Shown piece by piece: positions 8,666-34,025 of a stretch of 64,000 nucleotides of DNA. A program made the translations under genes and the position numbers. Position 1 is the stretch's first letter. Every line of letters starts with the position of its first letter. This DNA comes from Arthrobacter mangrovi (GTDB lineage Bacteria > Actinomycetota > Actinomycetes > Actinomycetales > Micrococcaceae), in the NCBI RefSeq assembly GCF_026011795.1, contig NZ_BRVS01000024.1, positions 1-64,000 on the forward strand, written 5' to 3'. Below the pieces are notes generated by a model, which had not been told where the DNA came from, made no database searches, and saw nothing but the letters and a program-made list of their open reading frames with translations.

Positions 8666-10315
8666 TCATGCAGAGCCCGGTATCCGGCGGGCTTCCGCCG
8701 GCTGCAGGCCGTGCTCATGGGCCCAGGCGGCAGCCGCAGTGCGGGACGACACTCCGAGCTTGGCGAAGATGTTGGCCACGTGCCGGCCTACCGTCTTCTG
8801 GCTGATGAACAGCGCCTCTGCCGTGTCCTTATTGCTGGCCCCCGAAGCGATCAGGGCCAGCACGCCGGCTTCCCGCTCGGTCAGGCCGCCGGGCAACGGG
8901 GTCCGCTCGAAGCGCCGGATGTCCGGCAGCGCGCCGAGCTCGCGGTAGATTGCGAGCGCCGTGGCCTCGTCGGCGTCGGCCACGGCCGGCTGGGACATCC
9001 CGCGGTGCGCCCGGGCGGACAGCTCGTACAGCCTGGCCGTCTCGTACCGCGCCTGCAGCGCCCGGTATCCGGCGGCCGCCGACTGCAGACGGGGCAGAGC
9101 GCCCGCAAAGTCCGCCGCGTCGATCAAAACTTCCGCCCTGGCGTGTCCGGCCCACGCGCGGAAGCAGGCCGTACCGAACTCGTCCGCCGTTTCCTCCAAC
9201 TGGGTGCAGAACCGCTCCGCTTCGTCCCGCAGCCCACGGGCAAGCGCGATGCAGACCGCCGGCTCAAGCAGGCGCGCGCAAGCCAGCCGGTCCCGCCCGC
9301 TCAGCGCCGAGCACAGCCCGGCCCAAGCCGCGTCGCTGTGGCCCGCCGCCTGCTGCAGCAGGGACTCCCCCGGCTGCGGGTCCGTGCCCAGCTCGCGGGC
9401 GCGCGCGTAGGCTGCCTGCGCTCCGCCGGCATCGCCGCGCAGCCGCCTCAACTCGCCCAGCTGGTAGAAGGCCTCGCCCGCCACCCAGTTGTTCCGGCCG
9501 ACCAGTTCGGCGCCGCTGCGCTCGATGGCGGCCTCGGCCTCGCCCCAGCGGCCTTCCACACTGAGCAGCTGCAGCCGGTGGATGCGGCAGATGCCCGCGT
9601 AGACCACTTCCCCCTGGAACTGCCGGCACCACTGTTCCGTGGCGCGGGTCCAGGCGCTCATGCGCGGCAGGTCCCCCAGTTCATGGCAGGCGTGGATGAC
9701 CGTGCAGTAGATGTCCCCGGCCCATTCCGGCGGGATCGCCCCGGCGAGCACCGGCAGCATCGCCTCATCCAGCTGGGCGAAGCCGGACGTTGTCCTGCCG
9801 GCGCGCAGGTCGACCAGCCCGGACAGCACCAGCCCGAACGACGTCAGCTCCGGTGCACGGTGCCGGCGGGCCAGCTCCTGCAGCCGTGCCGCGGCCCGGG
9901 CTGCCGGACCCCCGGGGGTGAAGTCGAAGGCGATCGAGGCGTCCAGGTACAGCAGGTAGCCCTGCGCCGGCCCCTCCGGCATGTCGGCAAGGATCCGCCG
10001 GGCCCGGCTGGCCCAGCCGGAGGCAATCACAAGGTCGCCCCGGATGAACCACAACAGGCCGAGGTTCAAGGCCTTCATCGCCGCCTCGGCCGGCTCGCCG
10101 CCGTCCAAAAAGCGGTGGTACACCTCCTCGGACAGCGACAGCGATTCCTGGACCTCCCCTACCCACCAGGCGGCGCTGCCCAGCAGGCCAAGATCCGCTG
10201 CAGGCAATCCGGAGAGTTCCTTGGCGCTCGCAAAGTCCCGGTAGGCGGCGTACCAGTCCCCGCGGGCGTATGCCGCCCGCGCTGTATCCACCAGTGCGTT
10301 GAAATCGTCCATCAT
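8666..10315 (-). CDS. LuxR-family transcriptional regulator with TPR-like sensor region
   Basis: About 549 residues. The last 65 are a LuxR/GerE helix-turn-helix: GLTEREAGVLALIASGASN, then KDTAEALFISQKTVGRHVAN and IFAKLGVSSRTAA. The remaining 480 or so residues are alpha-helical, alanine-rich repeats resembling tetratricopeptide repeats. No ATPase P-loop is visible, so it is not a full LAL/MalT-type regulator. I start at the first of two adjacent ATG codons (10315); ATGGAG just upstream suits the second one (10312) best, and a TTG at 10330 is possible. The regulator is followed on the same strand by the PQ-loop-like and methyltransferase genes, which are its likeliest targets by position. Confidence 0.8.
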   Translation of the reverse strand: MMDDFNALVDTARAAYARGDWYAAYRDFASAKELSGLPAADLGLLGSAAWWVGEVQESLSLSEEVYHRFLDGGEPAEAAMKALNLGLLWFIRGDLVIASGWASRARRILADMPEGPAQGYLLYLDASIAFDFTPGGPAARAAARLQELARRHRAPELTSFGLVLSGLVDLRAGRTTSGFAQLDEAMLPVLAGAIPPEWAGDIYCTVIHACHELGDLPRMSAWTRATEQWCRQFQGEVVYAGICRIHRLQLLSVEGRWGEAEAAIERSGAELVGRNNWVAGEAFYQLGELRRLRGDAGGAQAAYARARELGTDPQPGESLLQQAAGHSDAAWAGLCSALSGRDRLACARLLEPAVCIALARGLRDEAERFCTQLEETADEFGTACFRAWAGHARAEVLIDAADFAGALPRLQSAAAGYRALQARYETARLYELSARAHRGMSQPAVADADEATALAIYRELGALPDIRRFERTPLPGGLTEREAGVLALIASGASNKDTAEALFISQKTVGRHVANIFAKLGVSSRTAAAAWAHEHGLQPAEARRIPGSA

Positions 10316-10387
10316 CGGACTCCATCTCAACGGTAATCCCGCAGCCGGGCATCGGTCGAGCGGCCTTCCGCGGTCCCTCCCTTAAGC

Positions 10388-10425
10388 AAGTACGACGGCG
10401 GAACGTGAGTTCCGCCGTCGTACTT
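10388..10425. terminator. Perfect 17-bp hairpin, TACGACGGCGG family
   Basis: An exact inverted repeat with arms starting AAGTACGACGGCGGAAC and a GTGA loop. It lies between the end of the c-di-AMP-controlled gene and the start of the LuxR-type regulator gene, both on the minus strand. It probably terminates the former. The arm core TACGACGGCGG recurs in the hairpin between nrdE and nrdF. Confidence 0.7.
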
Positions 10426-10487
10426 TCCGCCGCGGTTCCGAGGCAGAGGCGCGGGACTTCTGCCCCGCGGACCAGTACCAAGGCCGG

Positions 10488-11396
10488 CTAGCGGCTGTCC
10501 TCTTCCTCGCGCCCGTCCAGATGCGAGCGGATCCAGCGCCAGTTCGGGTCGTCGACGGTCCCGCCGCGCACTGCCCGAAGCTTCCGCAGCGCCGCTTCGC
10601 CCTTGTCTGTGCCGATTTCCAGCGAAACCCCGGGCACGGGAGGACCGCCGGGAGCGGACGTTTCGGTGGACGGAGCAGGCTTCGGAGACACCGGCGCGGT
10701 GGCGCGCGCGCTGCGCTGGGCCGGAGCGGTCGGAGACGGCACGGCCCGCTCAGTGGGGGTGGCGGATGCGGTGGGTCGCGGGCTCTCCGACGCGGACGAC
10801 GCCGTACTGGCCGTGCCTGTCGGTTCCGGTGCCGCCGTGGGAGTTGCGGTGGGTGCTTGGGCCGCGCCGGCCGCCGCCTGGTCCCGGGTCGAGCCGGTGG
10901 CCGGGGCGCTCGCGGTCCCCGGTGTACCCGTGGCCCGCGGGGCATCGCTGGTCGGAACGGCAGCCGGTTCGTTGGAAACGCCGTTCGTTCCTGCTGCGGG
11001 AACCTGCGGAGAAACGGCGCCGGCGGTCGGCTGCACGTCGCTTGCCGGCATCGGATCAGCCTCGGTGGAGGCCGCCTTGCTGTCGACCGTGGGCCGGTCG
11101 TAGGCGGGCGTCGTGCTGCTGGTCGACGCCGCTACCGATCCCGTCGTCGTGAACGTCTTGGTGTCCGAAGGGCTCCCCGCAGCTTCCGGTTCCGATGGCT
11201 GAATCAGCGGCAGGACCACGGCTGCTGCCAACCCGGTGGCGACGGCGGCGATGCCGGTGAACGCCACCGGCTTCCGAACGGGGGAGAGTGCGGTCGCAGA
11301 GGAGGCTGCGGCGGCGCTTCGGCGGCCACGGGAGCGGCGGCCGGGTGGAACGGCGGAGCCGGCACGCCGGCGTCCGCGCGATGAGTGAATCTTCAC
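10488..11396 (-). CDS. Exported or membrane-anchored Ser/Thr/Pro/Ala-rich protein of unknown function
   Basis: A 302-residue protein. Residues 1-42 are rich in arginine, and residues 43-65 are one hydrophobic helix (VAFTGIAAVATGLAAAVVLP), so it is a signal anchor or long signal peptide. Residues about 70-250 are a low-complexity linker rich in Ala, Thr, Ser and Pro, as in cell-wall-spanning stalks. The last 45 residues are charged and ordered-looking, with DPNWRWIRSHLDG. No known catalytic domain is seen. The GTG start has AGAGGA 6 nt upstream. That ribosome site sits directly behind a c-di-AMP riboswitch, which suggests a role at the cell envelope. Function is otherwise unknown. Confidence 0.75.
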   Translation of the reverse strand: MKIHSSRGRRRAGSAVPPGRRSRGRRSAAAASSATALSPVRKPVAFTGIAAVATGLAAAVVLPLIQPSEPEAAGSPSDTKTFTTTGSVAASTSSTTPAYDRPTVDSKAASTEADPMPASDVQPTAGAVSPQVPAAGTNGVSNEPAAVPTSDAPRATGTPGTASAPATGSTRDQAAAGAAQAPTATPTAAPEPTGTASTASSASESPRPTASATPTERAVPSPTAPAQRSARATAPVSPKPAPSTETSAPGGPPVPGVSLEIGTDKGEAALRKLRAVRGGTVDDPNWRWIRSHLDGREEEDSR

Positions 11397-11409
11397 GGGA
11401 ATCCTCTCT

Positions 11410-11588
11410 ACACGCCTGAGAAGTTAGCTGTCGGATTCGAGAGAGAGCATCCCGGCGCGGCCGCCGCACAGCAGGAGCTGCTGAGGCTGGCCGCACTTCA
11501 CCCCAAGGCGCCGGTGGCGCCGATGATGGTTCCTCCACCTCTGCCAGTGCAATTGAACGGACAGGTACGCTGGCAGAGTTCGGCGTGC
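11410..11588 (-). promoter_or_regulatory. Cyclic di-AMP riboswitch (ydaO-yuaA type)
   Basis: Read on the minus strand, the leader has the conserved ydaO blocks in order: CACGCCGAACTCTGCC at the 5' end (to 11588), GGAGGAACC (11528-11536), TTGGGGTGAAG (11496-11506), and CGAATCCGACAGCTAAC running into CTTCTCAGGCGTG (to about 11411). The ends pair as P1 (CACGCC with GGCGTG), and CTCTGCCAG pairs with CTGGCAGAG as P2. The family binds c-di-AMP, usually to switch off downstream expression. The element ends 13 nt before the GTG of the exported protein gene, so its P1 lies against the ribosome site. That suggests translational control, though termination is the commoner mode in the family. Confidence 0.85.
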
Positions 11589-11627
11589 GCACCAGGCCAT
11601 GGCACCGTCCGGAGCATGGCGCCATCT

Positions 11628-11656
11628 AACGTATCGCCCCTGCTGAATCGTTACAA
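11628..11656 (-). promoter_or_regulatory. Probable vegetative promoter of the riboswitch-led gene
   Basis: On the minus strand TTGTAA (11656-11651) and TACGTT (11633-11628) are separated by 17 bp. Transcription would start near 11620, about 30 nt before the riboswitch. The spacing and position fit a primary sigma factor promoter; the -10 box is only a partial match. Confidence 0.45.
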
Positions 11657-11767
11657 ACCCGTGACATGTGTTGGTGCTCACGCAGGCGCTGAGCAGGCAA
11701 AACACCCGATTGTGGCGGGCGCCGCGCCGAAATGCAGGCTCAGCCCGAAGTTCCTTCGGTGAATCGT

Positions 11768-11796
11768 TTCGCAAACGGGTTTCCGCCCGTCATACT
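11768..11796 (+). promoter_or_regulatory. Possible promoter of the secreted nuclease gene
   Basis: TTCGCA and CATACT are separated by 17 bp on the plus strand, about 70 bp before the ATG at 11868. Both boxes are weak matches. The site is listed because it is the best candidate in the 471-bp divergent spacer; the other recognisable contents of that spacer are the riboswitch and its own promoter. Confidence 0.25.
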
Positions 11797-11867
11797 TTTG
11801 CCGGGGGAGGCTTCGGGGGTTCGATGCACGTCTCCTGCCAGGGACCACCCACTCGCTCAGGAGCATC

Positions 11868-13412
11868 ATGGACTTCACTCCCCTGCGCCGCGCCGCGGCC
11901 ACCCTGCTCGCCGCCTCACTGCTTGGCGCCACTGTTTCCGTGCCCGGCCCGGCCGCGGCTTCGCCCCTCCTTACGGTCACGGCGGAGATTTCGGCCATCC
12001 TCGCCGCCCCGAAGCTGGTCTCCGCCGGCTACACCGGCTTTACCCTCGACTGGGAGGCGGTGACCGGGGCCAACCGCTACGAGGTCCGCTATTCCACCCG
12101 GTCCGACTTGCTGGGCGCCCCCGTCGTCGAGAAGGTCCACAGCCGGTACCTGGGCGACCTGGAGGATGCGACGACCTACTACATCCAGTACCGGGCGCTG
12201 TACCGAGAGCCCGGCAGCGACTACGGCGAATACGTCCGCTCCGCATGGTCCCCCACGCTGAAGGCAACCACCCAGGCCAACTACCCCGGTGCGTTCACCA
12301 CGCTCAAGACGACCGGCGGGCAGGACAGCATTACGGTCAGCTGGAACCGCACCGCGGACACCACCCACTACACAGTCACCATTGCCGACAACATGGCCAT
12401 GACGCTGCGGCCGCGCACCTTCTCCAACGTCGCCGGCACGAGCCTGAAGATCACCGGGCTTACCCACGGCTCCCGCTCCTCCATGCCGAGCTTCATCCGC
12501 GTCTACGCCCACAACAAGACCTACAAGACCCGCACCTCGGCCCGGCTCACCGCCTACCCGGCTGCCCCGGCCGTCGCGGGAACCGAACCGTTGGCCGTAG
12601 CCAGCCAGAACCTGCTGTGCGCGAGCTGCACGGTCACCGGCGCCCCGCACTGGAACACCCGCAAGCTCACCCACCTGAAAACCATTAAGGCGAAGAACCC
12701 GGACGTCCTCCTGCTCCAGGAGGCCATGAACGTGAACATCCCGGGCACCGCCAGCACCAAGGCCATGACTGATTTCCAGGCCCGGCTGAAGACCATCGGC
12801 TACGCCCTGGACCGGACACCGGAGAAGGCCGGCACCAAGCACTACTGGAACCGCGTCGCCTACAAAAGCTCCAAGTACTCAGTGGTCAAGCGCGGCACGT
12901 TCGCCCTGCCCACCCCCGCGGGCCAGGACCGCCGCGGCGCCGCCTGGGTGGCGCTGAAATCGAAGAAGACAGGCAAGATCTTTTACGCCGTCTCCTACCA
13001 CGTCGACCCTAAGCTGCCGCTGACCGGCTCCGTCTCCAAAACCGCCGTCATGCAGACCATAGACCGGCAGCTGAAGACGATCAACACCCGCAACCGGCCC
13101 GTCGTTGTCGGCGGGGACATGAACTCCAGCTTCTACCAGCTGCCCTCCAACGCCCCGCACGAGGCCTTCATCAAGGCCGGCTGGACCGACACCGCCTCCT
13201 CAGCTGTGAAGACCGACTTCCTCTACCCCACCACCAACGGCTTCCGGAAGCAGCAGGCATCGACGTTCGGGCGCATCGACTACGTCTTCACAAAGAGCAT
13301 CCCTGGCACCGTCTCCTACGAAAACGTCCTCGACATCGACGCCGCGGGCCGGCTGCTCTCGACTCCAGGATCGGACCACAACATGGTCCTGGCCAAGCTC
13401 AAGCTGAAGTAG
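11868..13412 (+). CDS. Secreted Fn3 and endonuclease/exonuclease/phosphatase-domain protein
   Basis: A 514-residue exported protein. Residues 1-32 form a signal peptide (RRAAATLLAASLLGATVSV, ending near AAASP). Two fibronectin type III-like domains follow (about 45-140 and 142-230). The DNase I-like EEP domain runs from about 243 to the end. Its motifs are ASQNL, LLLQEAM, HYWNRVAY, VSYHVDP, VVGGDMNS, FGRIDYVF and GSDHNMV, which cover the usual metal and catalytic Asn, Glu, His and Asp positions. It is likely a secreted nuclease or phosphodiesterase; the substrate is not known. GGAG lies before the ATG. It diverges from the c-di-AMP-controlled envelope protein. Confidence 0.85.
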   Translation: MDFTPLRRAAATLLAASLLGATVSVPGPAAASPLLTVTAEISAILAAPKLVSAGYTGFTLDWEAVTGANRYEVRYSTRSDLLGAPVVEKVHSRYLGDLEDATTYYIQYRALYREPGSDYGEYVRSAWSPTLKATTQANYPGAFTTLKTTGGQDSITVSWNRTADTTHYTVTIADNMAMTLRPRTFSNVAGTSLKITGLTHGSRSSMPSFIRVYAHNKTYKTRTSARLTAYPAAPAVAGTEPLAVASQNLLCASCTVTGAPHWNTRKLTHLKTIKAKNPDVLLLQEAMNVNIPGTASTKAMTDFQARLKTIGYALDRTPEKAGTKHYWNRVAYKSSKYSVVKRGTFALPTPAGQDRRGAAWVALKSKKTGKIFYAVSYHVDPKLPLTGSVSKTAVMQTIDRQLKTINTRNRPVVVGGDMNSSFYQLPSNAPHEAFIKAGWTDTASSAVKTDFLYPTTNGFRKQQASTFGRIDYVFTKSIPGTVSYENVLDIDAAGRLLSTPGSDHNMVLAKLKLK

Positions 13413-24106: not shown

Positions 24107-24182
24107 TGGTGGAGCTGAGGGGACTCGAACCCCTGACCCCCTGCATGCCATGCAGGTGCGCTACCAGCTGCGCCACAGCCCC
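24107..24182 (-). tRNA. tRNA-Ala(GGC), CCA encoded
   Basis: A complete 76-nt tRNA on the minus strand. The acceptor stem GGGGCTG pairs with CAGCTCC and includes the G3-U70 wobble that marks alanine tRNAs. The anticodon loop ATGGCAT gives anticodon GGC. The T arm is AGGGG-TTCGAGT-CCCCT. The discriminator is A, and CCA is encoded. Confidence 0.96.
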
Positions 24183-24263: not shown

Positions 24264-24336
24264 TGGAGCTGAGGGGACTCGAACCCCTGACCCCCTGCAT
24301 GCCATGCAGGTGCGCTACCAGCTGCGCCACAGCCCC
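24264..24336 (-). tRNA. tRNA-Ala(GGC), second copy, CCA not encoded
   Basis: A 73-nt tRNA identical in body to the copy at 24107-24182, including G3-U70 and anticodon GGC. After the discriminator A the sequence reads CTC, so CCA must be added enzymatically. The two copies are separated by 81 bp and probably lie on one transcript. The duplicate arose locally, since only the tRNA body is shared. Confidence 0.96.
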
Positions 24337-33848: not shown

Positions 33849-33923
33849 CGATCAGAGGCGGAGCGAATATTGCACGGCAGCGCGGCGGAACACGCGAAAC
33901 ACAGAGGCAACGCCGGTGGAGCC

Positions 33924-34008
33924 GTGTGACAATCCCTCCGCCAGTCCTAACTGGTTCAGGTTCAACGGGTATCCATCTCAGCCGGCGTTGCCGGCACCCC
34001 GTGTCACT
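33924..34008 (-). promoter_or_regulatory. TPP riboswitch (THI element)
   Basis: On the minus strand the leader reads CACGGGGTGCC, CTGAGAT, ATACCCGTTGAACCTGA and CAGTTAGGACTGGCG, the conserved blocks of the thiamin pyrophosphate aptamer in order, closed by AGTGACAC with GTGTGAC-type pairing. It ends about 75 nt before the ThiD-TenA start. High TPP should reduce expression of the fusion gene. No clear terminator follows, so control is probably at translation. Confidence 0.95.
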
Positions 34009-34025
34009 GACGCCAGCATAGCAAA

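Follow-up and report, generated by a model that had tools for sequence, protein, structure and literature searches.

A conserved protein without a known domain behind a c-di-AMP riboswitch in Arthrobacter, best read as a derivative of M23 endopeptidases

The window analysed here is a stretch of 64,000 nucleotides from Arthrobacter mangrovi (contig NZ_BRVS01000024.1, positions 1 to 64,000). On its minus strand, a gene for a 302-residue protein without a known domain, which we term the orphan, lies directly behind a c-di-AMP riboswitch. The features of the locus are as follows.

11399..11591, minus strand: c-di-AMP (ydaO/yuaA) riboswitch aptamer (RF00379, 51.8 bits)
11582..11586, minus strand: 5' strand of helix P1, ACGCC (sequence and cmscan alignment)
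11443..11447, minus strand: loop CTCTC, the 5' pseudoknot strand (complementary to the Shine-Dalgarno; covariation test)
11412..11416, minus strand: 3' strand of helix P1, GGCGT (sequence and cmscan alignment)
11402..11409, minus strand: Shine-Dalgarno AGAGAGGA, whose GAGAG (11408-11404) is the 3' pseudoknot strand (sequence)
10488..11396, minus strand: orphan gene, 302 aa, GTG start, without known domain (open reading frame; found in nine of the ten genus genomes)
11082..11396, minus strand: N-terminal module, residues 1-105, with GRRRA-type Arg repeats, a hydrophobic stretch and the motif YDRPTVDS (alignment, dN/dS 0.17, tag test)
10632..11081, minus strand: Ala/Pro/Thr/Ser stalk, residues 106-255 (composition, dN/dS 0.54, block pLDDT 36-54)
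10491..10631, minus strand: C-terminal tail, residues 256-302, with TVDDxxWxWI in 5 of 9 homologues (dN/dS 0.65; two low-confidence helices)

The original prediction, made from the letters of the DNA, had placed a ydaO aptamer in this leader, and a covariance-model search agrees: RF00379 matches 11591-11399 over its full length (model positions 1-134) with 51.8 bits against a gathering score of 38 (E = 3.9e-9 when the whole window is searched, 2.8e-11 when only the local stretch is, the latter with alignment). The aptamer blocks quoted in its support, GGAGGAACC, TTGGGGTGAAG and CAGCTAACTTCTCAGGCG, were all located in the leader, and four of the five P1 pairs (ACGCC 11586-11582 with GGCGT 11416-11412) are present in the Rfam model. 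The Shine-Dalgarno AGAGAGGA (11409-11402) begins two bases past the 3' strand of P1, much as had been said of a ribosome site abutting that helix, and the GTG start at 11396 lies two bases past the end of the aptamer model. By its match to the model we take the leader to be a genuine c-di-AMP (ydaO) aptamer, and binding of c-di-AMP is predicted. A diadenylate cyclase domain (PF02457) is encoded in all ten genus genomes, that of the window included, a count that speaks of gene presence only. Elsewhere in the window there is a TPP riboswitch (33915-34011, minus strand, 65.8 bits), and two tRNA genes of identical sequence (24110-24182 and 24264-24336, minus strand) are separated by 81 bases.

The reading frame of 302 residues (11396-10488, GTG start) was confirmed, and the Arg-rich start, the single hydrophobic stretch and the Ala/Thr/Ser/Pro stalk that had been described are all present by sequence and composition. 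That this is an unusual riboswitch target without a known hydrolase domain was borne out, as the protein matches no Pfam family up to E 1, with Peptidase_M23, NlpC/P60, LysM and Rpf all absent, and no NCBIfam family up to the same limit. Its sequence lacks LPXTG, and no wall-binding domain was found with Pfam or NCBIfam. The other eight orphans likewise appear to lack an M23 domain, given that the 23 M23 and 26 NlpC/P60 matches among the 59 targets of the switch in the genus all fall in non-orphans. The 'short charged C-terminal domain' of the original prediction fared less well: this region is a weakly conserved tail (dN/dS 0.65) whose predicted fold is not confident. The AlphaFold model, built on a nine-row alignment, has a mean pLDDT of 45 and a pTM of 0.15, with no residue at 70 or above and two weak helices (264-277 and 284-293). 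We therefore rejected a folded C-terminal domain and, given the low confidence and the loose constraint, speak of the C-terminus as a tail. The idea that the orphan is a frame-broken M23 gene was also unsupported, since the next gene downstream, of the GerE/LuxR type by Pfam, starts after 157 bases and the homologues are equally open.

Conservation behind the leader in relatives, on which the original prediction had staked itself, was found. The orphan protein occurs in nine of the ten Arthrobacter genomes, one copy each, and an RF00379 match lies directly upstream of all nine, 2-3 nt ahead of the start codon. The nine proteins are 279-319 aa long and their frames are open, without stops, in every case; G009 is 72% identical to the window protein and the remaining orphans 27-36%. 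The tenth genome (G008) is without the orphan, and its five switches all precede hydrolases. With the homologue from G004 as query, records from Arthrobacter sp. SF27 and Arthrobacter sp. VKM Ac-2550 were matched. A profile of the orphan run against 295 family genomes found matches in its own genus only (9/295), with seven candidates scored per genome, so that more distant relatives may have been missed; a pattern search of the genome contigs with the window protein gave 596 pattern matches, with no relative among them. The orphans do not share one locus, an idea that was rejected because the neighbourhoods differ between genomes: in G009 the orphan lies in the same surroundings as in the window over a long stretch, the G002 orphan is flanked on either side by homologues of the window genes read as NrdF and RNase Z, and the orphans of G001, G003, G004 and G007 have one neighbourhood in common, different from that of the window.

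Constraint on the protein is uneven. For the pair G000 and G009, dN/dS (Nei-Gojobori, taken as the quotient of the two printed estimates) comes to 0.17 over residues 1-105, 0.54 over the stalk, 0.65 over the tail and 0.46 overall, against 0.06-0.30 for four hydrolases compared between these two genomes. Among G001, G003, G004 and G007, the whole orphan gives 0.24-0.33. The front of the protein is thus held and the rest is loose, and part of the orphan protein may matter little, as its stalk and tail evolve fast.

The orphan is one member of a regulon. The genome of the window has five RF00379 switches, and the four besides that of the orphan precede M23 or NlpC/P60 wall hydrolases. Across the ten genus genomes there are 60 hits with 59 readable targets, the remaining target being cut by a contig end; these 59 comprise 26 NlpC/P60 proteins, 23 M23 proteins, one interrupted LysM gene and the nine orphans, and Pfam finds LysM in 14 of them. 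The usual targets had been named as Rpf, NlpC/P60 and LysM proteins; NlpC/P60 and LysM hold here, and Rpf is absent from the 50 readable non-orphan targets of the genus. The interrupted gene (L053:274-801, plus strand) is a LysM-NlpC gene of G002 that is broken past its LysM part. In three genomes, G001, G003 and G007, adjoining NlpC/P60 genes (L099/L100, L093/L096 and L086/L087) have a switch each, and their proteins are identical within each genome.

Two lines of evidence connect the orphan to the M23 arm of this regulon. In a maximum-likelihood tree of the 59 leaders, whose bootstrap was not fully settled and whose root is for drawing only, the leaders of all nine orphans group together (support 92/90). 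This clade and the 23 M23 leaders make up the whole of a 32-row branch (100/100), and the 27 NlpC/P60 and LysM leaders lie on the opposite side. The N-terminal module is shared as well. The strict tag [GA]R[RH][RC]A occurs within the first 50 residues of 9/9 orphans and 48/50 other genus targets (57/59 together), and of 90/124 family targets, a count made without L164, where the wrong frame was picked; shuffles of the same residues average fewer than one per class. Two hydrolases of the window's genome that have no switch lack the strict tag, a control too small to make the tag switch-specific. The F-x-R-x-x-V-x-S-like motif is found in 20/23 M23, 13/13 short NlpC and 1/13 LysM-NlpC targets of the genus, and in 24/124 family targets. 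Among the orphans, the strict F-x-R pattern is present in four of nine (G001, G003, G004 and G007); the window protein has YDRPTVDS at that place, which the strict pattern rejects. As an observation in its own right, a GRRRA/GRHRA-like tag precedes the hydrophobic stretch in targets with unrelated catalytic domains and may be a targeting signature.

Set against the M23 endopeptidases of the genus (23 of the 59 targets), the orphan has the same leader branch, GRRRA-type start, hydrophobic stretch and, in part, F-x-R motif, but lacks the M23 domain and has a low-complexity stalk and a short tail instead. Compared as a candidate M23 endopeptidase, it thus has the genus-type leader and the N-terminal module without the catalytic domain. 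On the strength of the leader tree and the shared Arg-rich N-terminal module, we favour the view that the orphan descends from an M23-type unit whose catalytic domain disappeared, leaving a disordered stalk. The original prediction had described an uncharacterised envelope protein; judged by its leader and N-terminal module, it is no unrelated newcomer but derives from the M23 endopeptidases that share its switch.

We scanned 61 family genomes, 58 of them outside the genus, with RF00379 under stricter filters, by which weak hits may have been lost, and obtained 127 hits outside the genus, in 47 of the 58. A readable frame follows 125 of them, the exceptions being L118 and one hit in L206. By Pfam, these 125 targets include 71 NlpC/P60, 37 M23 and one GH16 protein, and a motif of our own finds an aggregation-promoting-factor-like C-terminus in 11, of which the two checked both match NF052397. 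If one such domain is allowed per protein, five targets are left over (L164, L225, L125, L165 and L229). L225 is cut by a contig end, and the frame of L164 was mis-picked, an alternative frame ending like the NlpC/P60 targets. L125 (633-1880, plus strand), in G043, encodes a 416-residue stalk protein without a Pfam family behind its own switch. On the same contig, an M23 protein with its own switch (L216:263-1141, plus strand) starts 3.8 kb from it, and the first ~70 residues of the two proteins are 46% identical (E = 3.3e-9). L125 therefore looks like a second, independent loss of the M23 domain in a second genus. Three further targets stand out among those of the family. Two genomes of a further genus (g13) have the switch ahead of long proteins (L165:3-1901, minus strand; L229:280-1929, plus strand) with repeats around AQWWNYWDGNGAKG..YGTGKQ.N.FLNA; neither has a Pfam or NCBIfam family over the cut-off, and both leaders are without the usual loop sequence. 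The glycoside hydrolase family 16 target (L172:217-1320, plus strand; E = 3.5e-11) is the sole one among the 125 family targets scanned.

How the switch acts can be approached through the loop and the Shine-Dalgarno. In the window, CTCTC (11447-11443) pairs with GAGAG (11408-11404) over 5 bp. The 187 leaders (60 from the genus and 127 from the family) give 141 distinct loop/Shine-Dalgarno pairs, 137 of which have at least four contiguous pairs, against a mean of 119.7 and a maximum of 131 in 2000 shuffled pairings. In a test anchored on the Shine-Dalgarno (186 leaders, 114 distinct pairs; L206, which is without a site, was dropped), the covariation score was 13.32 against 11.78 +/- 0.15 for shuffles and was reached by 0/5000 of them, a figure that is not a probability since shuffling ignores relatedness. 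At least five pairs form in 98 of the 114, and no shuffle exceeds 82. In the GGGAGAGG class (34 pairs), which hardly varies, there is no covariation signal, its score being reached by 3561/5000 shuffles, and the 80 pairs other than this class keep the signal (0/5000). The 66 of these 80 with a GAGAGG core also keep the score (0/5000), but their count of pairings at 5 bp or more stays within the range of the shuffles (56 against a mean of 51 and a maximum of 57), and the signal persists with one pair per Shine-Dalgarno string (69 pairs, 0/5000). The orphan leaders of G001, G003, G004 and G007 have three contiguous loop/Shine-Dalgarno pairs only. In the ydaO crystal, the pseudoknot reportedly joins this same hairpin loop and the 3' tail, as we read its printed sequence.

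The hint of translational control in the original prediction gains from these results, given that the Shine-Dalgarno is itself the 3' strand of the pseudoknot, that the two strands covary and that a terminator search of 10300-11900 gave nothing on the strand of the gene. According to the available text of PMC9960051, translation is most likely the level of control of the nlpC switch of Corynebacterium glutamicum, for which a CTCC/GGAG pseudoknot to the ribosome site was proposed. The Streptomyces coelicolor switch seems to affect translation initiation (available text of PMC8079986), the crystallised ydaO RNA contains a pseudoknot (in the part available of PMC5393176), and a review, also available in part (PMC10907184), groups ydaO with those switches in which the aptamer, once bound to its ligand, docks on the expression platform. 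The covariation of loop and Shine-Dalgarno supports translational control of the kind reported for Corynebacterium nlpC, and what was a proposal there is here joined by covariation over many leaders. Even without ligand, the Shine-Dalgarno is paired with this loop in a plain minimum-energy fold, and the direction of regulation is for this reason not settled by sequence; that c-di-AMP would turn the gene OFF is taken over by analogy from C. glutamicum.

That the switch acts by transcription termination instead is in our view highly unlikely. The Bacillus subtilis prototype does terminate transcription, and terminated transcripts of S. coelicolor were seen in vitro (both in the available text of PMC9960051). 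Here, however, the start codon lies two nucleotides past the aptamer in the window, and the 2-3 nt spacing of the nine orphans leaves no room for a terminator between; since no terminator-like site turned up between 10300 and 11900 on this strand, a terminator as expression platform was rejected, and the covariation of loop and Shine-Dalgarno also argues for translation.

What the orphan does is open to more than one reading. We consider it moderately probable that a translational OFF c-di-AMP riboswitch controls a non-enzymatic paralogue of M23 wall endopeptidases. Binding of c-di-AMP would steady the loop/Shine-Dalgarno pseudoknot and so hide the Shine-Dalgarno, and a fall in c-di-AMP would allow the orphan protein to be made together with the hydrolases. 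Export would rely on a signal region like theirs, and the surface output suggested by the original prediction is likewise putative. Embedded in the wall, the protein may then be an enzyme-free stalk that, for instance, spaces the hydrolases, partners them or competes with them where they act. The orphan might alternatively be a mucin-like stalk for surface display or for spanning the wall, with a role of its own in adhesion or shielding that is unrelated to the hydrolases. Its long Ala/Pro/Thr/Ser stalk, its hydrophobic stretch and the want of a confident predicted fold suit this idea, but the N-terminal module and the leader are those of wall hydrolases, and neither LPXTG nor a wall-binding domain was found, so that we hold it doubtful. 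It is also unlikely, in our estimation, that the orphan is a decaying paralogue in which the switch and the signal region survive and function went with the catalytic domain. The fast stalk and tail, the uneven conservation of the tail and the lack of the orphan in G008 are what decay would lead one to expect; against it, the open frame and the switch are kept in 9/9 orphan-bearing genomes, the N-terminal module is constrained, as is the whole protein among G001, G003, G004 and G007, and length is steady. Returning to a non-enzymatic M23 paralogue, a broader and speculative proposal, to which we give limited credence, is that the c-di-AMP regulons of these actinobacteria hold empty hydrolase mimics, made of the switch, an M23 export or targeting front and a stalk, which would have arisen at least twice (in this genus and in G043) as non-enzymatic regulators or place-holders limiting wall cleavage when c-di-AMP drops.

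In Actinobacteria, almost all described targets of c-di-AMP riboswitches are wall-related, according to the part available of PMC9960051, and of the targets read here in genus and family, all but a few are lytic enzymes. The C. glutamicum nlpC switch, as described there, resembles that of the orphan in its RF00379 family, its wall-related target and its lack of a canonical terminator, but its target is an NlpC/P60 peptidase, whereas the orphan has no catalytic domain. Similarly, the ydaO regulon of Streptomyces lividans (PMC8079986) places wall-related products behind the same switch; however, the six listed in the available text are hydrolases, peptidases or a transglycosylase, and none is domain-less. 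We found no report of a c-di-AMP/ydaO riboswitch in Arthrobacter in the open-licence literature, a scope that leaves most subscription papers aside.

The covariation described here adds comparative support for a mechanism by which these switches would block translation, and it names the pairing involved. The orphan, one gene behind one switch, offers a small and clean system for tracing the role of c-di-AMP. As the enzyme appears to have been lost and the export-like front kept, the signal probably controls something other than wall cutting at this gene, and the existence of a conserved, enzyme-free target suggests that lysis may not be the only envelope process coordinated by c-di-AMP.
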